NCBI GenBank assembly: GCA_015234045.1
Contig: JADFWU010000006.1
Span: forward strand, 1 to 64,000
Direction: 5' to 3'
DNA: 64,000 bases
From: Magnetococcales bacterium
Lineage (GTDB): Bacteria; Pseudomonadota; Magnetococcia; Magnetococcales; JADFWU01
Shown here piece by piece: positions 206 to 28,716 of the stretch. The notes beneath the pieces were generated by a model. The model was given only the letters and a program-made list of their open reading frames with translations. It did not search any database and was not told the origin of the DNA. A program made the position numbers and the translations under genes. The stretch's first letter is position 1, and each line of letters begins with the position of its first letter.

Positions 206-282
206 GCGCCCGTAGCTCAGCTGGATAGAGCAACTGGCTACGAACCAGTAGGTCGGAGGTTCGACTCCTTCCGGGCGCGCCA
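206..282 (+). tRNA. tRNA-Arg (anticodon ACG)
   Basis: The 77-nt cloverleaf has acceptor arms GCGCCCG (206-212) and CGGGCGC (272-278), discriminator G279 and an encoded CCA at 280-282. The anticodon stem ACTGG/CCAGT encloses the loop CTACGAA, giving anticodon ACG (read as ICG after deamination), and the T-arm contains GGTTCGACTCC. The 3' half (238-282) is repeated at 28659-28703, so this is the attachment-site gene of the integrative element. The copy here is complete, so tRNA function is kept after integration. Confidence 0.97.
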
Positions 283-284
283 TT
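238..284 (+). repeat. attL: 47-bp core repeat inside tRNA-Arg
   Basis: The segment from the anticodon loop (CTACGAACC) through the encoded CCA and two T residues is identical to 28659-28705. The match stops at base 237 on one side and 284 on the other. This is the expected product of tyrosine-recombinase insertion into a tRNA 3' half. Confidence 0.92.
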
Positions 285-313
285 TAATTCGAAGACATTT
301 CAGTTAGTTAAGT

Positions 314-348
314 AGGGATTCAAGAAAACTCTTGAGTCCCTATTTTTT
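314..348. terminator. Terminator after tRNA-Arg, also inside the integrase 3' end
   Basis: GGGATTCAAG (315-324) pairs with CTTGAGTCCC (331-340) with one G-T pair, and is followed by T7 (343-349 region). The integrase stop codon (340-342, minus strand) lies in the stem. The element thus supplies a new terminator to the tRNA in place of the native one, displaced to 28717. Confidence 0.75.
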
Positions 349-1413
349 TGCCATGTGAGACTCTGTGTGAGACTTTTGCCGAGCATGTTCATACATTGAA
401 ATTGCTTGGCGTTCTGCATCCCCCAGACTGTGGAGATAAATTTCAGTCGTTGTTCGGTTTTCATGACCGAGGATCCGTTGGATTGCTCCTACCGGTACAT
501 TGCTATTTTCCATCAATGAAGCTCCCGCATGTCTCAGAGCATGAAATCGAAAATATCTCACACCAGCTTTTTTACATAGCGTCCCCATGATTTTCTTCCG
601 GTCTTGATATGGTCCCTCTATTTTTTCTCTGGTCTTACTACTCCAATATGTTTGCCAAAAGACCCATGGCTTAGAAGGATCGCGCTCTTTATAACGGCGG
701 GACAGCACATCAAAGAGCTTGCCAGTCATTGGAACCTTACGGGGAGTCAAGTGCCCGCCTTTTTTCTTCCGCGTGTATAGGATCACTAAACGAGCATCAA
801 GATCTATATCATCCCAAATAAGTTGATTGACCTCACTGACCCTGGCCATCGTTTCTCGGATGGTCCATAGGTAATCTTGTGTATCAGGATCAGCAACGGC
901 AATGACTCGATCAACATCCTTAGCTGATGGGACATATTTGATCTTTTTCTCAATGGGCAAGGATTCCATTCCATCAACTGGATTTTCAGAAACCCATTTC
1001 CGCTTCTTGGCAAAATTGAAGGTGGCCTTCAATGATTGGATTTCCTTATTGGCTGTGATGGCGGATACTTTTGATCGTTCTAAAACGAACTGTTCTACCA
1101 TCTCGGTGGTTACTTCGTTGGTCAGTAGATGACCCCATTGTTTCACCCACCTCCTGGCCATATAAAGGTAATCCTTATAATGCCGCTCGGAGTTGTACGC
1201 CTTCACATGATCCAACCGCTTATTCACCAGATCCAAGAAGACCATGTCGGTTTGGGTCTTTTCCTTCACTACTGGTTGCTCCAGTTCCTCCCTTCTTTTT
1301 GCTTCGGCTTTTCGTGCCTGAGCCTTGGTTTTGTACCAGGCGTTTGTGTACCTGGCTCCCTTGCGGGTGAAGTCGTATCTCCACCCCTTTCCTCTTACCG
1401 AATAAACGCTCAT
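340..1413 (-). CDS. Tyrosine-recombinase integrase of the element
   Basis: The 357-residue protein fits a phage-type integrase. Its N-terminus (GKGWRYDFTRKG) is an arm-binding-like domain rich in basic and aromatic residues, followed by a SAM-like core-binding domain and the catalytic domain. The catalytic signature is visible: Arg in MARVSEVNQLIW, the H-x-x-R box in FHALRHAGASL, then ILGHENRTTTEIYLHS with His and the nucleophilic Tyr. The gene ends 55 bp from the attL core and points at the tRNA, the usual layout for tRNA-targeting integrases. It should catalyse site-specific insertion and excision at the 47-bp core. The upstream HTH gene overlaps its 5' end. Confidence 0.95.
   Translation of the reverse strand: MSVYSVRGKGWRYDFTRKGARYTNAWYKTKAQARKAEAKRREELEQPVVKEKTQTDMVFLDLVNKRLDHVKAYNSERHYKDYLYMARRWVKQWGHLLTNEVTTEMVEQFVLERSKVSAITANKEIQSLKATFNFAKKRKWVSENPVDGMESLPIEKKIKYVPSAKDVDRVIAVADPDTQDYLWTIRETMARVSEVNQLIWDDIDLDARLVILYTRKKKGGHLTPRKVPMTGKLFDVLSRRYKERDPSKPWVFWQTYWSSKTREKIEGPYQDRKKIMGTLCKKAGVRYFRFHALRHAGASLMENSNVPVGAIQRILGHENRTTTEIYLHSLGDAERQAISMYEHARQKSHTESHMAKK
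354..372. promoter_or_regulatory. Candidate integrase arm-type sites, left end
   Basis: TGTGAGA occurs at 354-360 and 366-372, a 12-bp spacing, inside the last codons of the integrase gene. The same heptamer pair with the same 12-bp spacing occurs at the right end (28522 and 28534), plus one inverted copy there. Paired short repeats flanking both att cores are typical of integrase arm sites; the role is inferred. Confidence 0.5.
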
Positions 1414-2834: not shown

Positions 2835-3956
2835 CTACTCTCTCCAATCTTCATCGTCATACATGTCGAACTCACCTTCATCATCTACCATCAAGACATC
2901 ATCCTCAGCGATCATCCCGTCCTCAACCAGTTTCTTGGCTTTCTTCCAGGCGTCGTAACCGGTTGCATTGACCGACAATCCCTTCAACTCCAACGTACGG
3001 TTACAGTGACGGTGTTTATCCAATGCTCGTTCAATATTGGTGACACCGCTCTGAATCAGACAGTCGATAGTCTCCACCATCTCCTGATACCGGAGTGTCC
3101 CATCCTCATTGAGAAAGTGCCGCTCGTATGACTGACCATATTTGTTGCGAAGCTGCTCAAACTGCTTCTGGATCGATTTATACTGGTCCAACGATTGATA
3201 GGTGTGCTGTGTAATGCTCCACTCTTTAATGAACCCAAGCCGGACTATATTGTCTCCAGGAACCAGATCAGATTGATCAAACTGCTTAATCTTGTGCGTG
3301 TACTCCTTTGTCTTCAGAATATTGGTTCGAGCAAATAGATCAGGGCGTTCTATGATCTCCGGCTCACGCAGTGACCTCAGAAACTCACCTGATGACGACT
3401 CTTCATCGTACCGATCACCGATGCACATCTCATCACCATCATCCAGTACCAGCGCCCGCTGATTTCCACGCTTTTTTTCATATGAACGCATCTTTGTCTT
3501 GATACCGGTATCGTCAGGATCAGACTTTGATGGAGGACGCTCCAGTTGATAGTTGGCAGATCCATGGAAGGTACCGGTATGGTAAAAATCCTTCATATCA
3601 ATGGTGTATCGACCAATTCGGGACTCATAATTGATTATGGGCTCGTCATCACCGACACCGTCACCTTCAATACCATCACGTTCTACGGAAATCGTGGTAA
3701 ACGGCATGTTCAGGACATCGATATTGGATGAATAGATCGACTGAAGGTGCTCCATCATGACTGCATTGACCCAGTCATTGGCATCGCTACCTATCAGTTC
3801 GGTCTCAACCTGACCATCTTTGATCAGTCTGAGGACGGTTTGATCACCGTCATCGTCAACCCAATCCAGGTCAATACGATCGTACCCACCGAGTGATCCG
3901 TATCTGACATTGGGATTGGACTCACGGTATAGATTGAACAAGTCGGTTGCAGTCAT
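2835..3956 (-). CDS. Putative C-terminal (palm-end/thumb) part of a split family-B DNA polymerase
   Basis: The 373-residue acidic protein starts with an ATG that overlaps the stop of the polymerase palm gene (ATGA, 3953-3956). GGAGG lies 10 bases upstream, so it can be translated independently, or coupled. The upstream gene ends 18 residues after its catalytic motif-C aspartate, leaving out the rest of the palm and the thumb, which every family-B polymerase needs. This protein is in the right place to supply them. It contains KMRSYEKKR (residues about 150-160) and a segment running LVPGDNIVRLG, then KYGQSYERHFL and DGTLRYQEMVETID, which I associate from memory with regions downstream of the ITDG motif in unsplit relatives. 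That assignment is an inference; alternatively it is a separate accessory subunit. Confidence 0.55.
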   Translation of the reverse strand: MTATDLFNLYRESNPNVRYGSLGGYDRIDLDWVDDDGDQTVLRLIKDGQVETELIGSDANDWVNAVMMEHLQSIYSSNIDVLNMPFTTISVERDGIEGDGVGDDEPIINYESRIGRYTIDMKDFYHTGTFHGSANYQLERPPSKSDPDDTGIKTKMRSYEKKRGNQRALVLDDGDEMCIGDRYDEESSSGEFLRSLREPEIIERPDLFARTNILKTKEYTHKIKQFDQSDLVPGDNIVRLGFIKEWSITQHTYQSLDQYKSIQKQFEQLRNKYGQSYERHFLNEDGTLRYQEMVETIDCLIQSGVTNIERALDKHRHCNRTLELKGLSVNATGYDAWKKAKKLVEDGMIAEDDVLMVDDEGEFDMYDDEDWRE

Positions 3957-5728
3957 TGAATGGTATCCTCCACTGGGTAAACAACGTTATTTAGGTCAAT
4001 GACCATCCCATCTGTGATGACCTGATACCCTTGGAATGCACTCTCCATGTACCACATCAACGCCCGGACAGATGCAGTGATGTTGTTGGCGACCAACAGA
4101 TTTGAAACCTCCATAAATTGACTACTAATCACTCCTGGAATTCCGTTAATTATCAGCTTCCTGAGCTCGGCTTCAGGAGCTTCTTTCCCAAAGGTCAGAC
4201 GCTGTTCCAACAGCTTATTGGTGCATAGTTCACCCATGGTTTCTGCATACCAAGCATGGCACTGTTCCTCGTAAAGAACCGTGCGCGTATTCCCCTTTGA
4301 AATTTCAAGCTGACAACCACTGCTTCCAGCATGGTTGTCGTGCAAGGCCCAAAACTCTTCTGGCGTTTTACACCGTTCTGAAGCTGGATACATAACGAGC
4401 ACCTGGACGTACAGTCGATCCAGCAGTTCATCTCGTTGCTCTGGAGAACAGACATGGAGGATGTATTGGATGGCATCGTGATTGATGACAGTGTTTTCGA
4501 TCCAATGAGTGAAAATCTTCACTTCACCGCGTCCATGATCATCATCCTGGTACCAGTATCTTTTCTTCTTTTTCCCGATATCAAAACGGCTTACAAAGAA
4601 GGTATTCGGAAATTCTAGTGGACTCAAAGAGTCCATCGATACAGTTGCATACCAATGGAGTGGGACCAGCTCATCACCAAATTGATCCAGGCACTGACGC
4701 AGGGTGGGCTTAATGACACCAGCACCTTTTCTATTGAAGAATAGGACGACAGGGACTCCAACGATGTACGGTTGAGCTCGACTCCCTTCACCGTAGCAGG
4801 ACTGCACATCGACATCGCACAATGCCCCGTATGCGTTGGAGTCAGTTGGACGAACATTCCTGCACCGACCACCAGTTGAAAAACCGGCCAGGTAGATTGT
4901 CGTATCAGTCTGTGATCTGAAATGATCGGCCCCACACTTCGATAGGATACCCATCAACTGTTTTTGACGGCTCTTATCATCAGGTTGGATCTCCATCATC
5001 TTGAACAAGAGGGCTTGCATAAGATCCCGTATTGACCCACCGATGGTCAGTCGTGGTATGTATCCATCTTTCCAATAGTCAGCGACACTGAGTGACCCCC
5101 ACATCTCTTTCATGAGGTCACGATATTTTTCGAGGATGCGGTACATAGTCAAATCACCGAGGGCGTAGCGATCAAAACGGTATAATCCGCTCTCATCTGG
5201 ATCTTCGAGATAGACCTGATCCATTCGCCCTTTTTCATCAGAGCTGATGATGTCTTTGTACGGCATTTCAACGCCAACGGTTTTGGATACCTGATCCAGG
5301 CTCATGTAACCCATGATGCTTAATGTATCCACGAAACTGAGTGTGATGCGGTATTCGTATGACTGGTCATCCTGACGGATAGTAGCTATCCATGGCATCT
5401 TGGCAGGATGGCCGAAATTGCTCCCTGTCTTCAGGTTTTTTCCATCATGATGGATCCATTTCCGGCGAACGGCATTGTCGATATCGATCAGATATTCATC
5501 AGTGAAGCTGAGATACAACTCAGCCTGCAAGAAGTGACCGTATAGCTTGATGTTGAGGGTGTTTTTGACAGCATCAAGCTGTTCTCTGTCCTCCTCACGA
5601 CGCACGCTGATGTCGTATCCTTGATCACGCATGTAGTCGATCATAACGATACCGGATCTGAACACTTTGTGGCGAAATTGACCATAGAATCCACCATCGG
5701 CCTCAATGTCAGGATTATTCATCGCCAT
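3953..5728 (-). CDS. Divergent family-B (phi29-like) DNA polymerase, exonuclease plus palm, ends at motif C
   Basis: The 591-residue protein shows the ordered motifs of a proofreading family-B polymerase. HFLQAELYLSF (residue 65 on) resembles the Exo II region. SFVDTLSIMGYMSLDQVSK (D134) matches the segment before Exo III in phi29 polymerase, and YALGDLTMYRIL (Y188, D192) matches the Exo III Y-x(3)-D. Polymerase motif A is CDVDVQSCYG (D307), motif B is KLIINGIPGVISS (K524, N528, G532) in the pattern K-L-x-x-N-x(3)-G-x(3)-S, and motif C is ITDG (D573). The usual second Asp of motif C is absent. The protein stops 18 residues after D573, so the thumb must come from the next gene. The start at 5728 has GGAGGTG upstream. 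It probably replicates the element; whether it is primed by the element's primase or by a protein is not shown. Confidence 0.78.
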   Translation of the reverse strand: MAMNNPDIEADGGFYGQFRHKVFRSGIVMIDYMRDQGYDISVRREEDREQLDAVKNTLNIKLYGHFLQAELYLSFTDEYLIDIDNAVRRKWIHHDGKNLKTGSNFGHPAKMPWIATIRQDDQSYEYRITLSFVDTLSIMGYMSLDQVSKTVGVEMPYKDIISSDEKGRMDQVYLEDPDESGLYRFDRYALGDLTMYRILEKYRDLMKEMWGSLSVADYWKDGYIPRLTIGGSIRDLMQALLFKMMEIQPDDKSRQKQLMGILSKCGADHFRSQTDTTIYLAGFSTGGRCRNVRPTDSNAYGALCDVDVQSCYGEGSRAQPYIVGVPVVLFFNRKGAGVIKPTLRQCLDQFGDELVPLHWYATVSMDSLSPLEFPNTFFVSRFDIGKKKKRYWYQDDDHGRGEVKIFTHWIENTVINHDAIQYILHVCSPEQRDELLDRLYVQVLVMYPASERCKTPEEFWALHDNHAGSSGCQLEISKGNTRTVLYEEQCHAWYAETMGELCTNKLLEQRLTFGKEAPEAELRKLIINGIPGVISSQFMEVSNLLVANNITASVRALMWYMESAFQGYQVITDGMVIDLNNVVYPVEDTIQ

Positions 5729-6038
5729 GGGACACCTCCATCATTGATCGCTCGAAATCAGGATGGACGTAAATGACACCTTCAGACTCATGAATACCCT
5801 TAATTTGAACGGTGATTCCAGTTCTTGATCGCGATTTCTCGGTTTCAAGGAAGTCGTCAATGTCACCGCTCACAAACTCGGTATCAATTTCCAATGGCAC
5901 CACGATGTTCAGTGGTTTTGATGGCACTTTGACCATCTTCTTCATCGGGACTTCATCAGTCATCAGCTCCTTGTCAATCAGGTATTGACGCCCCCGCATA
6001 TGACGAGAGTCTGCAAGTAGTTTTGGCTTATTCGTCAT
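5715..6038 (-). CDS. Hypothetical protein, 107 aa, first gene of the polymerase operon
   Basis: I do not recognise a family. The N-terminal part is basic (KPKLLADSRHMRGRQYL) and the C-terminal part is beta-rich (ITVQIKGIHESEGVIYVH). GGAGG sits 7 bases before the ATG. The end overlaps the polymerase start by 14 bp, which points to translational coupling. A small, partly basic protein translated with a polymerase could be a processivity or single-strand-binding factor, or a priming protein, but nothing in the sequence shows this. Confidence 0.6.
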   Translation of the reverse strand: MTNKPKLLADSRHMRGRQYLIDKELMTDEVPMKKMVKVPSKPLNIVVPLEIDTEFVSGDIDDFLETEKSRSRTGITVQIKGIHESEGVIYVHPDFERSMMEVSHGDE

Positions 6039-6183
6039 GGTTAAACCTCCAAGGGTTTAAGGTTGGAGGCACATGTAAAGATCAAGGTTGACCATTGGCC
6101 AACGATCAGAAAGGGGTTATCATCGAAGGATGATGACCATACCGATCCGGCGTACATGCGCCCCATTGGTTTGGTGCAAAAGA

Positions 6184-6546: not shown

Positions 6547-7026
6547 CTAAACGACTGGTTCGATCGTTGTAGGATCGATGTGCTGCTTGTGAAACTTAGT
6601 CTGCGACTCATCAGTGGTGACCTTGAATCGATACTTACGCCCTTTGAGAGCTATCAATTTTTTATTGATCTCTACCGTGTCGAAGTTACCACTGAGAATT
6701 TCTGCCAGATTCGTGGCCTTCATATTCATGACGAACACAGTCAACAGATTGAACTCATTGTTGATATTTCTACTGCTGACCCTGGTGCCAGTATCAAATG
6801 TTATTTCAACATCTTCTGGCTTCCCCTTGACCATGAACCTGCTATTGAGATTGTAAACTACCCAGGATCGACCATTGTCAGGATTTCTCTTGGTGCGCTC
6901 TACAATCTCACTACCAAGATAGGTGCCTTCACCCATCCCGTTTTCATCAACCACAGCTTCTGAGTCTGCAAGAATAGTTTTTGGCACAGCAACAGCGCTG
7001 ACCATTTTATGACTTACTCTCTTCAT
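6547..7026 (-). CDS. Hypothetical protein, 159 aa
   Basis: I do not recognise this protein. It is beta-rich with a middle segment NIDVEIT-like (GKPEDVEITFDTGTRVSSR), and the C-terminal half is basic (LIALKGRKYRFKVTTDES). GGAGAG precedes the ATG by 6 bases. It has its own terminator-like hairpin and lies between the glycosyltransferase and the polymerase operon. An oligonucleotide-binding fold is possible from composition and position, but no motif proves it. Confidence 0.55.
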   Translation of the reverse strand: MKRVSHKMVSAVAVPKTILADSEAVVDENGMGEGTYLGSEIVERTKRNPDNGRSWVVYNLNSRFMVKGKPEDVEITFDTGTRVSSRNINNEFNLLTVFVMNMKATNLAEILSGNFDTVEINKKLIALKGRKYRFKVTTDESQTKFHKQHIDPTTIEPVV

Positions 7027-7208: not shown

Positions 7209-8060
7209 TCATTCGTTTACATAATGATCACCTCCATTTTCAATTCCATCAGCAAGCTCCACATGCAATTCACCATCCTGGAAAAAATACCTCTCTTCAG
7301 GGAACGGAAACTGACGGCAGATAGCAGAGTTGCTTTTCACTCGGACCATTCCAGCAAATCGGCGCTCAAGCAGACGCGCTGTACTGTGTCCCTCGGAGCT
7401 ACCAAATCTGAAATGCTTCTTCTTAGCTGTACCACCATCAGCGGTGCGATGAGGCTGATATCGATGGTGATACATTGGTACATGGACAGCACCAACCCAG
7501 TGACCGTGTTGCCAAGCCCGAAGTGACATGTCCACGTCTTCAAGCAGAGTCAGATCTGGATCGTAGTTCCCGTGCTCTTCAAAGAACCATCGTGGAAAGC
7601 ATGTAAGAACGATGTTCGCTTTGAGAAATGCAACTGAATCCTTGGTGAACGACGGCAGATAACGTGTCATGCTGCCAATCGCACCAACACTGACGAACCT
7701 GGGTTCAGCGGCCATCAGTTGGAAGATTTTGTCCAATGCGTTGGGAGCGGTCAGCTTCGCATCATCATCAAAGTTGAAAACCAAGTCACATCCATCATCC
7801 AGTGCCTGTTGAGTACCGACGTTACGGGCCAGTCCAACACCACACTCGGTAGGCATGTCGATAACACAGATGTCATCAACATAATCCAAACGTAAACCTC
7901 GATCCCATCCATCAAGGATCCGGTAACGGTCATCACTGTTGTCAACGATGTAAACGGTGACTTGATGACCGGCATACAGACCAAGGGATTTCAGACACTC
8001 CCGGATCATTTCTGGGCGATTGTAGTATGGCACTACGATGCCCACCTTTCTTAAAACCAT
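7209..8060 (-). CDS. Family 2 glycosyltransferase
   Basis: The 283-residue protein has a GT-A fold start, VGIVVPYYNRPEMIRECL, with a nucleotide-sugar binding edge VYIVDNSDD. The metal-binding DxD region is NFDDDAKLTAP (residues about 95-105). A later LLEDVDMSLRAW gives the ED pair typical of GT2 catalytic loops. There is no membrane segment, so it is a soluble enzyme that transfers a sugar from a nucleotide donor to an unknown acceptor. GGAG sits 8 bases before the ATG. It follows an 82-aa gene by 14 bp and lies among replication genes, not surface-polysaccharide genes. The acceptor could be DNA or a protein of the element, but the sequence does not tell. Confidence 0.85.
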   Translation of the reverse strand: MVLRKVGIVVPYYNRPEMIRECLKSLGLYAGHQVTVYIVDNSDDRYRILDGWDRGLRLDYVDDICVIDMPTECGVGLARNVGTQQALDDGCDLVFNFDDDAKLTAPNALDKIFQLMAAEPRFVSVGAIGSMTRYLPSFTKDSVAFLKANIVLTCFPRWFFEEHGNYDPDLTLLEDVDMSLRAWQHGHWVGAVHVPMYHHRYQPHRTADGGTAKKKHFRFGSSEGHSTARLLERRFAGMVRVKSNSAICRQFPFPEERYFFQDGELHVELADGIENGGDHYVNE

Positions 8061-8579: not shown

Positions 8580-9812
8580 CTAAGACTGGAAAATGGGGGC
8601 CTGCCGAACAACGTCAAACTGATCGACAAGATTCCTCAAATCTTTGGGAAGTTGATTAATTGGAGGATCATCAAGATTTTTACTATGATCATCCGACCAC
8701 ACATCAGCCAGATCGGGACTGATCACGTAAAGCTGGACGTAATAAAGCTGCTGTATCCGCCGCTGAGCCTTTTCTCTCTCAACATCAGGGATTGGTTCCT
8801 CATTAACCTCCGTTGGGACAGAGGCTAACATCGCATCAAGATCAAACAGCCCTTCAAGCAGATCACGTGAGGCTGTTATAGATTGCCAGTCAATCCCAGA
8901 CACGTGTTTGTTCAAGCAGGATTCACTGTGAGGGAGAGGCTCAGGAGGAGGAGCAGAGATTGATTTATTCAGTTCACCATAAGTTTGTTTAACGATCTTT
9001 CGGAAACTCTGTTCACGATCGTCATCACCTTCAAGCTCATCAAGTGCTGCATCTTTGACCCGATCATGCACAGTCTGTATCAACTGTTTCTGATGATCCT
9101 TGGATAGCTTGGCCATCTTATTGCCAAAGGACAATGTAACCCCTTCTTGGGTCACCCAAGCCTGGATTTCAGGGAGAGCGTCTCTTTGGAATTTTGCAGC
9201 ACGCTGAACTGAAGTCCGACTGATGGAGTGTAAATTGGCGGCTTCGTCCTGGGTCAATGCTTCTTTTGAAGCATTCGATTGCCCCTTAGAAAGCGTGGCC
9301 ATTGAAACAGCAACCATAGCCTTCTGTGAGGTTGACATATGACGGTGCAGTTCATTGCTTCCGATAACAAACTGGAGGATATCCTTCTCGGTGGGCTCAC
9401 GACCCAACATACCGGAGAGATAAACGAATAGGGGTACCATCCCATTCTTTTTGCTAACTTCAACGCGGTTTCGACCGGCGAGGAGTACCGGATTGCTTTC
9501 TGAAATCAGAACACACGGCTCACGCTGACCATGCTTCGCCATATCAGCGGCAAGGGATAACAAACGACGTTCCGATTGCATCGGATATTTATCAGCAGCG
9601 GGATGCACATCCAGTTTTTCCCAATCATCACGAGTGAACACTTTCTGCGAAGATGTCGATCTTAATGGGTTGGTGCCTTCCCGATCATCATCGTCACAAT
9701 GGGTACCTTTCGCATACATTTTGAATTCAGCATATTGCTTTTGCTGATACTCTTTTTCAGTCAACTGATCGCAGCTTTCGTACTCAGAGTTATCCATTGA
9801 ATTTTCAAACAT
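8580..9812 (-). CDS. ParB/Spo0J-like partition protein
   Basis: The protein has about 410 residues. Its N-terminal ParB-like domain includes HPAADKYPMQSERRLLSLA followed by the GRNRVEVSKKNG box (the G-R-x-R motif of the CTP-binding ParB/Srx fold). A central helix-turn-helix follows: LTQDEAANLHSISRTSVQR. The acidic C-terminal third has no recognised domain. ParB-like proteins bind centromere-like sites and help DNA segregation, or act as regulators in phages. No parA gene is adjacent, so it may work alone or as a regulator. I chose ATG 9812 (AGGTG just upstream) over GTG 9818. The iteron region beyond its 5' end is a plausible binding site. Confidence 0.78.
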   Translation of the reverse strand: MFENSMDNSEYESCDQLTEKEYQQKQYAEFKMYAKGTHCDDDDREGTNPLRSTSSQKVFTRDDWEKLDVHPAADKYPMQSERRLLSLAADMAKHGQREPCVLISESNPVLLAGRNRVEVSKKNGMVPLFVYLSGMLGREPTEKDILQFVIGSNELHRHMSTSQKAMVAVSMATLSKGQSNASKEALTQDEAANLHSISRTSVQRAAKFQRDALPEIQAWVTQEGVTLSFGNKMAKLSKDHQKQLIQTVHDRVKDAALDELEGDDDREQSFRKIVKQTYGELNKSISAPPPEPLPHSESCLNKHVSGIDWQSITASRDLLEGLFDLDAMLASVPTEVNEEPIPDVEREKAQRRIQQLYYVQLYVISPDLADVWSDDHSKNLDDPPINQLPKDLRNLVDQFDVVRQAPIFQS

Positions 9813-10025
9813 TTTCACACCTATTTTGTTGTTTTCGCACCAGTGGGTGCGGTGGATTTACACACAAGTTACTCAGCCCAACCAATGAGGCATGAATAAC
9901 CCGACGAAAAAGATTGATATTTGGTTTCACACCCCACCTTCGTGATGGTGACAGGTGAGGTGTGGATGATCCTATCCCGGAAACTGGGTCTCCTTTATTG
10001 TTCGACGTTGCCATCACCGTCAGTC

Positions 10026-19450: not shown

Positions 19451-19561
19451 AAATTTGAGACCGTGCCCTCTCGGTTGAGAGCACGGTCAGAGGCTAGCCA
19501 ACCGAACAACCACGACATTGCAGCGGTTGGCATCAATTTGATAATGAAGAGAGATGATCTG

Positions 19562-22500
19562 ATGAACACAGAGATTGAAAATCAGAATGAAGAGTTGGTC
19601 ACTGTATTGAGGACCGCGCCGGATAAACGTGCTACCAAAAAGTGGGTCAAACGGAGTGACGGTACAATTATTCTGGAGAAGTTTGACACTGGTGGAATTT
19701 ACACCATGGACCGGCATCCCGTTTCAGGGATCTATGAACTGGGGGCATTACTTCAACGGATTGAGAAGGATCCACGGCGGCTCATTATCCGTGGTGAACC
19801 ATTGCCGGAAGTTCAGTTACTTGAGCAACAGCAAGCCCCTGAACCTGTAGCGGTATCAGCCAGGAAACACTCTGCACCAAACAAACCAGCTTTTTTCATG
19901 GAACGAGCCCGGCCATGGATGATGATTGATCTTGACAATATTTCATGCCTTGATCAGATTAATCCGGCGACTGATCCAGAGAAAGCAGCCAGATCATTGT
20001 TATCCATTCTACCTGATGAACTTCAGGGGGTGACCTGTGTTGTGAAATGGTCATCCAGCCAGAATGTCGGAGGGAGTGGATTCTCAGCCCATGTTTATTA
20101 TTGGCTGGATCGACCATACGGTGAGCAAGAGCTGAAAGTATGGGGACGACACGTCAATAATAAAGTTGGTTTTAAGTTGATTGATTTATCAACGTTTCAG
20201 ACCGTTCAGTTGCACTTCACAGCGGCTCCCATATTCGATGGTATGGATGACCCGCTGCCCAATCGGCTGATGGTCATTGAAGGTTCATCTGATGAGGTGA
20301 GCCTACCAAAGATCCCAGAAAAGTCGGAAACTGGAAAAACTATCCATGGTGGTGCATACACCCCGAAAACGGTGGAGTATCACTTATCAAAAATGGGCGA
20401 TGGACCAGGTCTAAACGGGTTTCACCGTCCCCTACTTTATGCGACTTTTTCTTATGTGATGAATTTTGGAGTACCTACTGATCGTAGCCCGCTTTTGGCT
20501 CAGCTACGATCAGCTATCGTGGCAGCTCCGAAGAGTAGCGACAGAGAAGAAAGAGAGATCGAAGAGTACAAGAGTGACTGGAAACTCAATGCCATGATCG
20601 ATGGCGCCATTGAGAAAACCCAATCAACCAGGAAGGCCTTCACCTCTAAGTTTCGTCTCCCATCTGGTGAAAAGGCAGAAGTCACAAGGACAGCTGACGA
20701 ATACCTCGGCGACGTTGACTTCAAGCCAGGAGCTAATTTTATCAAGGTCCATAAAGGCGGTGGGAAGACGACCTCTCTCAGAAAATCAGATATCGTTAAC
20801 TTTTCCTCGTCAAACCGAGTCCTTTTCATCACATTCCGTCGCTCATTAGCTGGAATGACATCCCATGCATTCGGTACTGCTCACTACCTGGAGTGCGATG
20901 ACAAGATGCTTCAGATGGAGAATGGAGTGGTCATCTGTGCGGATAGTTTATACAAACTGGACCCTGGCACAAAATTTGACACCGTTATTTTAGACGAATC
21001 TGAGCAAATAATCAGCCACTTCATTGCTGAAACAATGAGTTTCAGGTTGAAGAATTTCGATCAGTTCCGCCGATTAGTCCATCAGGTTGGTACCGTTGTC
21101 TGTTTAGATGCTGATTTATCTGATCTGACGTTCGACACCGTTATGGCGGCTCGACCCAAAGATGAAACTCCATATATTCTGATCAACGAGTACCAAGCGA
21201 ACAAAGATCGCACAATACACGTCTACTCATCAAAAGAGGAGGTCTGGCGGCAGGTGAAGTCAGCTTTGCATGGTGGAGGTAAAGTTTACTTTGCAACCAA
21301 TTCGAAGAGAGAGGCGAAAAAACTCCATCATGATCTAAAGACTTTTGACTCTGACCTACGCGGTATCTGCATTAGCTCCGACACCAGCCAGGAAGAGGCT
21401 TCTCTGGATATCATCCGTGACGTCAATGAGCACTGCATCAAGTATGATTATGTCATTGCCACTCCGTCCATTGTCTCAGGTATCAGCATTGACGTGGAGC
21501 ACTTCACCCACGTTTTCGGTATCTTCAATTCCATGAGTACCACCTACCACGATGCGTTACAGGCTTTGAGCAGGGTGAGAACAATTGACGCACTGCATGT
21601 CTACCTGGACCCATGTATGGGATATCTCGAAACCGATTCAGAGAAGATCGGACTGGATTGGATAAAGAGTCACGAGGATAAGGAGCATCTTGTTGGAATT
21701 TCGTTGGATGGTGCCCGATTCTGCCGCCATTCTGTGTTTGAAAAATTGGCTCAGGAGGTGACCGCTCATCAGAACGAGAGCAAGAATGACTTTAAACGTC
21801 ACTTTCTGACCAGTGCCATAAACGAAGGGTACGATATCAATTTTGTTGAGTATGATCCTGCGGCCATCGAAGCAGGAAGAGCTGATCGTCAATTGGCTAC
21901 AGAAGAGCTGAAAAATGAATTGGTAAATGGCATTTTGGATTCTGATGTCATTGACGATGATGAGTTCGATGATCTCAAGAAACAGATGGATCACGGCATC
22001 CTGTCTGTTGAAGATCGGTACAAACTGGACCGTCGGTGGATCACTGACTTTTATGGAGAGGTGAATCGGGAGATCGTGATTGAAGACAACGATGGTCGAT
22101 TCAGAAAAGCATGTCAGAACTTTTTCACCGTGACGACTGATCCAGAGCTGGTGATGATGCAGGACGTACCCAAATTCCAAAATCCGAACACCTCGTTGCT
22201 CGACCTGAAAATCGATACCCCTCTGAATCACTTTGGACGCGTATTATTGAAACCACTTGGCGTTACATTCAACGGTGATGGAAAAGCGGTGTATGACGAT
22301 AGAGCGATCACTGGTACAGAGTTGAGTGAAAACACTGAGTTCATGAAACCGATCAGTAATCAGTTTGAGCTCTTTAAGACGACCTTTGGTCTCAATATTG
22401 GCGAGAAACGATTTAAAGCCAAACCAATCCAATGGATCAACAGAGCACTATCTGTCATTGGATTAAGAGTGGTTGGGACTGGAAAACGTGGTCCAAACGG

Positions 22501-22837
22501 GAGAGAGTATAGGATTGACCAGGCACGATTGAAACGGCTGAATGAACTGCACCACCGACACCAGGGAAAAATCAGTGTGTCTCGTGTCAGGAAAAATCTT
22601 TTCAATGAGCGTGGCAAGGGGATTCTTAAGGTGTTGGGATTGTTTTCATCAGACAGTCATGCACAACAATCTACAACTTATGACGAAGCTGTTGATCAGG
22701 TGTCATCAGTTGATGGGAACGAGATGGGAATTGATGAGCTGGATTATATTGAATTGGATAGGCAGACCTCCGCCTTGGGGGCGGCGGCTGCCAGAGTGAG
22801 TCACGAACGACCGCTGCCGCAGGCGGCGGGAGGGTGA
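19562..22837 (+). CDS. Archaeo-eukaryotic-type primase fused to UL9-like origin-binding helicase
   Basis: The protein has about 1,091 residues. The N-terminal third looks like an AEP primase: MMIDLDNI (D123 and D125, the D-x-D metal site), FSAHVYYWLDRP (S175 and H177, the S-x-H site) and a third region around LHFTAAPIFDGMDDPLP. The centre is an SF2 helicase of the herpesvirus UL9/origin-binding type, with Walker A VHKGGGKTTSL (K402), Walker B VILDESEQ (D478, E479), SIVSGISIDVEHF, and motif VI QALSRVRTIDALHVY (R671, R673). The C-terminus has an unrecognised domain and an Ala/Arg tail encoded by the first GC-rich repeat of the downstream hairpin region. The frame is open from 19463; ATG 19562 is preferred (GAGAG upstream). 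It probably opens the origin and primes DNA for the element's polymerase. Confidence 0.8.
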   Translation: MNTEIENQNEELVTVLRTAPDKRATKKWVKRSDGTIILEKFDTGGIYTMDRHPVSGIYELGALLQRIEKDPRRLIIRGEPLPEVQLLEQQQAPEPVAVSARKHSAPNKPAFFMERARPWMMIDLDNISCLDQINPATDPEKAARSLLSILPDELQGVTCVVKWSSSQNVGGSGFSAHVYYWLDRPYGEQELKVWGRHVNNKVGFKLIDLSTFQTVQLHFTAAPIFDGMDDPLPNRLMVIEGSSDEVSLPKIPEKSETGKTIHGGAYTPKTVEYHLSKMGDGPGLNGFHRPLLYATFSYVMNFGVPTDRSPLLAQLRSAIVAAPKSSDREEREIEEYKSDWKLNAMIDGAIEKTQSTRKAFTSKFRLPSGEKAEVTRTADEYLGDVDFKPGANFIKVHKGGGKTTSLRKSDIVNFSSSNRVLFITFRRSLAGMTSHAFGTAHYLECDDKMLQMENGVVICADSLYKLDPGTKFDTVILDESEQIISHFIAETMSFRLKNFDQFRRLVHQVGTVVCLDADLSDLTFDTVMAARPKDETPYILINEYQANKDRTIHVYSSKEEVWRQVKSALHGGGKVYFATNSKREAKKLHHDLKTFDSDLRGICISSDTSQEEASLDIIRDVNEHCIKYDYVIATPSIVSGISIDVEHFTHVFGIFNSMSTTYHDALQALSRVRTIDALHVYLDPCMGYLETDSEKIGLDWIKSHEDKEHLVGISLDGARFCRHSVFEKLAQEVTAHQNESKNDFKRHFLTSAINEGYDINFVEYDPAAIEAGRADRQLATEELKNELVNGILDSDVIDDDEFDDLKKQMDHGILSVEDRYKLDRRWITDFYGEVNREIVIEDNDGRFRKACQNFFTVTTDPELVMMQDVPKFQNPNTSLLDLKIDTPLNHFGRVLLKPLGVTFNGDGKAVYDDRAITGTELSENTEFMKPISNQFELFKTTFGLNIGEKRFKAKPIQWINRALSVIGLRVVGTGKRGPNGREYRIDQARLKRLNELHHRHQGKISVSRVRKNLFNERGKGILKVLGLFSSDSHAQQSTTYDEAVDQVSSVDGNEMGIDELDYIELDRQTSALGAAAARVSHERPLPQAAGG

Positions 22838-22887
22838 GATCATTCAGGATCATTTGGAATCAGTGCCTGTCATGGCACTAATTCCAA

Positions 22888-22950
22888 CCAACTGACTCTT
22901 TATTTTTTAAGAAAGATCAATCAGTTGGTGAATCCAACTGATTGATTCAG
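22888..22950. repeat. 63-bp direct repeat, copy 1
   Basis: Runs from CCAACTGACTCTTT to GATTGATTCAG. It contains an inverted repeat CAATCAGTTGG / CCAACTGATTG (11 bp, 5-nt loop) after an AT-rich run. Copy 2 lies 187 bp downstream. Confidence 0.9.
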
Positions 22951-23074
22951 AATACTGAGTAATCATGACTGAATGATATCCACACTGGTTCGCCGCTACC
23001 CCTTGAGGGGGCGGCGGGAGGTGATGATAAGATTACAACATCGTTAAGATCATTCAGTACCTGAATGATCTTTG

Positions 23075-23138
23075 CCAACTGACTCTTTATTTTTTTAAGA
23101 AAGATCAATCAGTTGGTGAATCAAACTGATTGATTCAG
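23075..23138. repeat. 63-bp direct repeat, copy 2
   Basis: Differs from copy 1 by one extra T in the T-run and one C-to-A change in the right arm of the stem. It is preceded directly by the perfect 12-bp hairpin AAGATCATTCAG / CTGAATGATCTT (23046-23072). Confidence 0.9.
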
Positions 23139-23460
23139 GATGTTGAGATGGTCCTAGCCTCTCGCCGCCACGCCTTTTGGCGTAAGGTGGCAAAAGAAGT
23201 CAGCTGAGTGATCCTTCACCTTCCGCCGGATGCAGCACCCCAGCTGCATCCGAGCGCAAGAAACAAGAGGTTGAGGTAATCACCGTTGTTAAAGGCGTTC
23301 TTTGGACTTCTACAGTCGTTTTAGAATTAGACCCAACACCGGGCCGCCGCAAAGCGTCAGAGTTGCATATAAGACCTTGAAAAAGAAGTGCAATAGTGAT
23401 CTGAGTCACCGGGTCGCCCAACGACCAGGTGACTGACATAGAAACAATCATGATAAGCTA

Positions 23461-25304: not shown

Positions 25305-25892
25305 TCAGTCATTCCAGAAGTCTTTGAACCGTTCTGGAGATAACTGGGTATATCTGACAGTGTGTTGGATGTTTCTGTGGCCAAGATAGTGTTGGATCGC
25401 TCTGGTATCCTGACCATCATTAGCAAGTTTAAATCCGATCGAGTGTCTCAACATATGGGGATGGATCGGCATACCGATCTTGGCTTTCTCACCAGCACGG
25501 TATACGATCTTCCTAAATCGAGCCGGTGTGATCGGACCTTTACGTTCACTAATAAACACGAAATGTTGATCAGGATAATTCCGGCTGACTTTACGAAGCG
25601 CTCGGATTTCTGACCCACGAAGTGGATGTGTGCTCGGTTGACCATTTTTCAAACGATGGACATGAAGGAGAGATTGCTTAAGATCGACCTGATTCCATTT
25701 CATGGTCGTCAATTCAGACACTCTCAATCCATGTGAGTAGGCCAGTAGAATCATGGTAGCGTCACGGTGACCATGGCGGCCTTGCCTTCTCGCCGCCCTG
25801 ATCAACGATTCCACCTCATTGGGAGTCAGATATTCACGACTCCTGAGGTCAATATTTCGTTGGCGACGCGGTGGTGATGGTTGCTCTTTCAT
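25305..25892 (-). CDS. Small tyrosine recombinase, catalytic domain only (FimB/FimE-like)
   Basis: The 195-residue protein consists of the catalytic domain without a core-binding domain. Key residues are visible: Arg in YSHGLRVSELTTMKW, H-x-x-R in HPHMLRHSIGFKL, then HYLGHRNIQHTVRYTQLS with His and the nucleophilic Tyr. The size and pattern resemble FimB/FimE-type inversion recombinases and the small recombinases of integrative elements. GAGGAG precedes the ATG by 8 bases. I found no clear pair of inverted target repeats next to it. It could invert a segment, resolve dimers of the excised element, or assist the main integrase. Confidence 0.88.
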   Translation of the reverse strand: MKEQPSPPRRQRNIDLRSREYLTPNEVESLIRAARRQGRHGHRDATMILLAYSHGLRVSELTTMKWNQVDLKQSLLHVHRLKNGQPSTHPLRGSEIRALRKVSRNYPDQHFVFISERKGPITPARFRKIVYRAGEKAKIGMPIHPHMLRHSIGFKLANDGQDTRAIQHYLGHRNIQHTVRYTQLSPERFKDFWND

Positions 25893-28571: not shown

Positions 28572-28658
28572 TGATGGAGAAAATCAGCAATAATAAAATA
28601 TGTTCAAAATCATAATTTTCTGAGTAAACAAGGAGGTTGTGAAACTCAGGGGAAATGC

Positions 28659-28705
28659 CTACGAACCAGTAGGTCGGAGGTTCGACTCCTTCCGGGCGCG
28701 CCATT
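28659..28705 (+). repeat. attR: 47-bp core repeat (tRNA-Arg 3' fragment)
   Basis: Identical to 238-284. It lacks the 5' half of the tRNA and is therefore not a functional gene. It marks the right boundary of the element. Confidence 0.92.
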
Positions 28706-28716
28706 AAAATCAAAGG

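Follow-up and report, generated by a model that had tools for sequence, protein, structure and literature searches.

A predicted family-B DNA polymerase of the PolB_SITDG group, covered by three overlapping genes in a Magnetococcales integrative element

Is a family-B DNA polymerase that appears interrupted in a Magnetococcales genome one enzyme made in separate parts, or a broken gene? The window analysed here is a stretch of 64,000 nucleotides (assembly GCA_015234045.1, contig JADFWU010000006.1, positions 1 to 64,000). An earlier note, made from the sequence alone, had read a 591-aa gene and a 373-aa gene on its minus strand as a polymerase split in two just after motif C. Both open reading frames, their ATGA overlap at 3953-3956 and the GGAGG ahead of the second gene were as described there, and so were the order of motifs A, B and C in the 591-aa protein and its stop 18 residues past Asp573. 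The polymerase was indeed split; however, two was not the right number of genes. A third gene of 107 aa, which carries the Exo I motif and shares 14 nt with the 591-aa gene, had been overlooked.

Three genes along one family profile

Homologues were sought in PLSDB, IMG/VR, GenBank phages, PDB, 48 Magnetococcales genomes and about 400 Pseudomonadota genomes. The unsplit homologues that the earlier note had proposed to look for were found as intact ORFs of 963-1242 aa on cyanobacterial plasmids in PLSDB (Scytonema, Stanieria, Calothrix, Moorena, Rivularia and Geminocystis), where they were annotated as 'hypothetical protein' or left unannotated. The 591-aa protein matched the Scytonema homologue with 35% identity over 97% (E 2e-101). 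When a family profile of 981 positions was made from eight relatives, nearly all unsplit, the three ORFs tiled it without loss, indicating that one enzyme is divided among three ORFs and that no part of it is lacking. The genes, ribosome-binding sites (RBS) and motifs are listed below in the direction of transcription.

6046..6050, minus strand: GGAGG RBS of piece 1, 7 nt from the ATG
5715..6038, minus strand: polymerase piece 1, 107 aa, N-terminus with Exo I; profile positions 23-77 matched at 5751-5921, E 1e-9
5877-5885, minus strand: Exo I DTE codons, inside piece 1
5735..5739, minus strand: GGAGG RBS of piece 2, inside piece 1, 6 nt from the ATG at 5728
3953..5728, minus strand: polymerase piece 2, 591 aa; profile positions 79-650 matched at 3965-5680, E 1e-148; phrog_36870, E 1e-19
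5153-5167, minus strand: Exo III YALGD, in piece 2, within the remainder of the exonuclease domain
4790-4819, minus strand: motif A, in piece 2
4133-4159, minus strand: motif B, in piece 2
4007-4018, minus strand: motif C (ITDG), in piece 2
3967..3971, minus strand: GGAGG RBS of piece 3, inside piece 2, 10 nt from the ATG
2835..3956, minus strand: polymerase piece 3, 373 aa, remainder of the palm and thumb/C-terminus by homology; profile positions 652-954 matched at 2991-3959, E 5e-62

Piece 1 matched the N-terminus of a 751-aa homologue in another Magnetococcales genome (G022), including the Exo I DTE (BLASTP E 5e-12). The 373-aa protein, proposed in the note as the missing C-terminal part, proved to be just that: in addition to its profile match, it matched the C-termini of seven plasmid ORFs, and its identity to the C-terminus of the Calothrix plasmid homologue was 33% over 308 aa (E 1e-40). 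Beyond the equivalent of Asp573 there are 280 residues in RB69 polymerase, 117 in that of phi29 and 265-377 in the intact homologues checked, showing that the 591-aa protein, with 18, cannot be complete alone. No internal stop was present across the 1071 codons of the three ORFs. At the level of sequence, the 591-aa and 373-aa ORFs were confirmed as encoding the predicted middle and C-terminal portions of a single, divergent family-B DNA polymerase, and the three overlapping genes were shown together to cover the whole of the predicted PolB_SITDG enzyme. An alignment by eye suggests that GSANYQL...IKTKMRSYEKK of the 373-aa protein stands where RB69 has KKRYAL...LKIMGLETQK past motif C. Directly downstream of piece 3, a DUF5131 gene (2104-2826) starts near the end of the 373-aa ORF and may share the operon.

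Among the 48 Magnetococcales and about 400 Pseudomonadota genomes, the only convincing further copy was that of G022 (contig JADFZS010000090.1). There, the regions of all three pieces shared one frame until a run of about nine G, after which the frame changed. The idea that G022 shares the split was rejected, as its break lies elsewhere, at the G run. This frame change (positions 3467-3480 of locus L003, on a contig of about 5x coverage) may be a genuine break, slippage or an error in the homopolymer, and it looks like one of the latter two. Scans of IMG/VR gave one distant relative (L007) and no further one; GenBank phages yielded no relatives and a chance match only, and the PDB sequence search with family profiles returned unrelated chance matches only. 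Other distant relatives came from linear plasmids: those of Stanieria and Gloeothece, for which a telomere resolvase is annotated, and that of Chondrocystis; the Stanieria homologue matched phrog_36870 end to end. Linear phage-plasmids that encode a PolB of their own are a possible reading of the linear cyanobacterial plasmids L019, L020 and L021, where annotation gives two a telomere resolvase and one of these a terminase as well, and of the phage-like IMG/VR contig L007, with terminase-like and portal-like ORFs.

Some of the plasmids with a homologue are just 4.6-5.9 kb long and the polymerase is by far their largest gene, suggesting a family of plasmid replicases. On a 4576-bp Geminocystis NIES-3709 plasmid (NZ_AP014832.1), a polymerase ORF of about 1000 aa takes up most of the molecule and is absent from the listed genes, probably as a result of crossing the start of the record.

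Catalytic motifs and the PolB_SITDG group

Motif A (CDVDVQSCYG, residues 304-313), motif B (KLIINGIPG, 524-532) and motif C (ITDG, 571-574) followed one another in the 591-aa protein with the spacing of the family, as in a family-B polymerase. The exonuclease carboxylates were also present, with Exo I DxE as DTE in piece 1 and Exo III YxxxD as YALGD in piece 2, both conserved across the family; the assignment of Exo II was not clear-cut in the split polymerase. Motif C had been thought to lack its second Asp, which was not borne out. The residues I-T-D-G aligned to D-T-D-S/G, showing that the first Asp is replaced and the second kept, and the same ITDG was observed in all 12 other family members examined. 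When columns invariant in these 12 members were considered, 38 of 39 residues were retained: 35 in the 591-aa piece, two in piece 1 (D and E of Exo I) and one, an H, in piece 3. The sole loss was Tyr531 of motif B, replaced by Pro (Y531P). The branch length of the split polymerase was 1.26, compared with 0.78 for the G022 copy. Both the substitution and the long branch fit relaxed selection.

PolB_SITDG was named by Kazlauskas et al. 2020 (PMC7544198) as a divergent PolB cluster with a hydrophobic residue in place of the first motif C Asp, and was reported only from cyanobacteria and algae (PMC7544198). Motif C of the split polymerase reads VITDG and fits the (S/T/V)ITDG pattern of that group. 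The motif order and the relatives on cyanobacterial plasmids are likewise shared, and sequence analysis showed the predicted enzyme to belong to PolB_SITDG. From their motif and hosts, we infer that the plasmid homologues found here are the published PolB_SITDG set. By contrast with that set, the split polymerase is encoded by three genes instead of one, has Pro for Tyr in motif B, and resides in a chromosomal integrative element of Magnetococcales (Pseudomonadota). The group appears to be biochemically uncharacterised.

None of the three window proteins matched known PolB profiles directly, and the link to these runs via family members only. PF03175 aligned over motif A of the Moorena homologue (E 1e-5, slightly under the curated cut-off), PHROG DNA polymerases aligned over motifs B-C of the Stanieria homologue (E 2e-6 to 2e-5), and PRD1 polymerase aligned at motif B (hhalign E 8e-4); an unrelated control gave nothing. 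These links are weak, yet they fall on the right motifs. AlphaFold reached a pLDDT of 36 for the 591-aa piece with a 3-row alignment, and of 33 for the intact L007 homologue, both models being too poor for use.

A related description comes from Lee et al. 2016 (PMC4814812), whose passages on plasmid Pp6859 of Porphyra pulchra treat orf4-orf5 and cyanobacterial homologues as a novel POLBc subfamily, with Calothrix 336/3, Moorea and Rivularia among its species. The red algal plasmid copy is likewise spread over two ORFs. As differences from the present locus, pseudogenes occur among the organellar copies, and those passages describe no three-gene arrangement.

Origin of the two splits

The junctions were compared with chance by simulating 1-nt frameshifts in 21 window genes (28,286 cases) and scoring an in-frame GGAGG-ATG before the old-frame stop. 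Such a restart was created in 0.32% of the cases, giving approximately 1e-5 for both junctions; under looser rules the joint chance was 6e-3. The first junction (107/591) alone had a chance of 0.3% under strict rules and 8% under the loosest. It is the fairer test, because the locus had been chosen partly for the ATGA overlap whereas this junction had gone unreported. A restart at both junctions, expected at 0.3% each, makes two sequencing errors unlikely. The GC content by codon position was gene-like in each ORF in its own frame, with the frame switching at the two junctions, and the longest homopolymer at either was at most 3.

These results bear on whether the true gene is a single ORF that appears broken through indels introduced during sequencing or in putting together a metagenome-type assembly. 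The draft genome comprises 117 contigs, and the G022 copy, broken at its G run on a contig of about 5x coverage, illustrates how such a break may arise. However, the short homopolymers, the rarity of the restart found at each junction and the independence of the first junction from the choice of locus argue against an artefact, which we consider improbable. Programmed ribosomal frameshifting, +1 and then -1, would yield one full-length protein from the three frames, and the frame order 0, +1, 0 with short overlaps permits it. It would need two different types of shift, no -1 slippery heptamer was found ahead of the 591-aa stop, and the canonical RBS and ATG at both junctions suffice for expression, making frameshifting very improbable.

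The main rival to a functional enzyme is decay, in which two real frameshifts occurred once the element was trapped in the chromosome, leaving pieces that are still translated yet non-functional. The loss of the motif B Tyr, the long branch and the integrated state of the host element are all in its favor, and decay does occur among the homologues of red algal plastids and liverwort mitochondria (PMC4814812). Against decay stand the absence of internal stops, the retention of every profile position and of all but one invariant residue, the codon-position pattern kept in all three frames, and restart sites well placed at both breaks. We regard decay as unlikely, though a serious contender. As judged from its sequence, the split polymerase is probably functional but divergent. 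Both splits lie inside domains (exonuclease and palm) and not between them, which was counted against a working complex.

Polymerases of family B in two pieces are known from Aeromonas phages 25 and 44RR (gp43A/43B), Methanobacteriales (PolB3) and Nanoarchaeum equitans (PMC2988022, PMC4104785). In phage 25, the 43A and 43B halves purify together and have activity (PMC2988022). Here, too, a family-B polymerase is predicted to be made as separate polypeptides; however, the known cases consist of two pieces and belong to another PolB branch. Their splits are tied to a homing endonuclease, intercistronic sequence or inteins (PMC2988022, PMC4104785), whereas the genes here overlap without an insert. 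Because the junctions contain no extra sequence, we dropped the idea that the splits arose from an intein or a homing endonuclease. No three-piece PolB was found in the literature searched, which was a limited selection.

The host element and a three-part replicase

The polymerase genes lie in an integrative element of about 28.4 kb at tRNA-Arg, which also encodes a type I restriction system. Its main features are as follows.

227..294, plus strand: left attachment repeat, tRNA-Arg 3' end, 68 nt, 90% identical
340..1413, minus strand: tyrosine integrase, adjoining tRNA-Arg; Pfam Phage_integrase, E 5e-25
6547..7026, minus strand: 159-aa gene upstream of the polymerase; phrog_36249, E 4e-5
19463..22837, plus strand: CyRepA1-family plasmid replication protein; NCBIfam NF042913, 328 bits (cut-off 200)
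28648..28715, plus strand: right attachment repeat, 68 nt, 90% identical

With the polymerase and CyRepA1, the element brings together two replication modules that occur on cyanobacterial plasmids. On the linear plasmids of Stanieria, Gloeothece and Chondrocystis, the gene directly upstream of the polymerase matched phrog_36249 with E 3e-74 or better. Just past the CyRepA1 gene, at 22880-23160, strong hairpins are clustered together with a pair of 57-nt direct repeats (93%); the DNA fold z-score was -9.4, and the region is a candidate replication origin of the element. A family-2 glycosyltransferase and a 412-aa protein, ParB-like by eye, are encoded near each other at 7209-8060 and 8580-9818; the former was weakly similar to TET-associated glycosyltransferases (E 0.007), with possible DNA modification. 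A second, short tyrosine recombinase of 195 aa (25305-25892) was also observed within the element.

The relatives make one protein where three overlapping genes are found here, suggesting an enzyme probably assembled from three separate parts. One mRNA would give three proteins by translational coupling, with termination and reinitiation at a GGAGG-ATG inside the preceding gene, and these would assemble non-covalently into one polymerase. The Exo I carboxylates, with the opening strands of the exonuclease domain, would come from piece 1. Piece 2 would complete that domain and contribute motifs A, B and C, and the thumb and last part of the palm would be provided by piece 3; the pieces would then be obligate subunits. 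The polymerase may copy the excised element with the CyRepA1 replication protein, and perhaps also with the 159-aa protein as an accessory. A three-gene PolB_SITDG with coupled translation, co-assembly and a role in replicating the element is the best explanation of the locus, with a probability of about 0.65; co-assembly, activity and the replication role are what we infer. It is on balance probable that this is a natural three-subunit family-B polymerase, split inside domains at both places, with elements of the active sites distributed among its subunits and a single-Asp ITDG, serving as the replicase of a non-cyanobacterial integrative element.

Two-piece PolBs were already known, and the three-gene PolB is the new feature. 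A polymerase in three pieces, cut where nature tolerates it, would be useful for testing the reassembly of exonuclease and palm domains. For the family, the finding adds a magnetotactic lineage and integrative elements to the range of PolB_SITDG.
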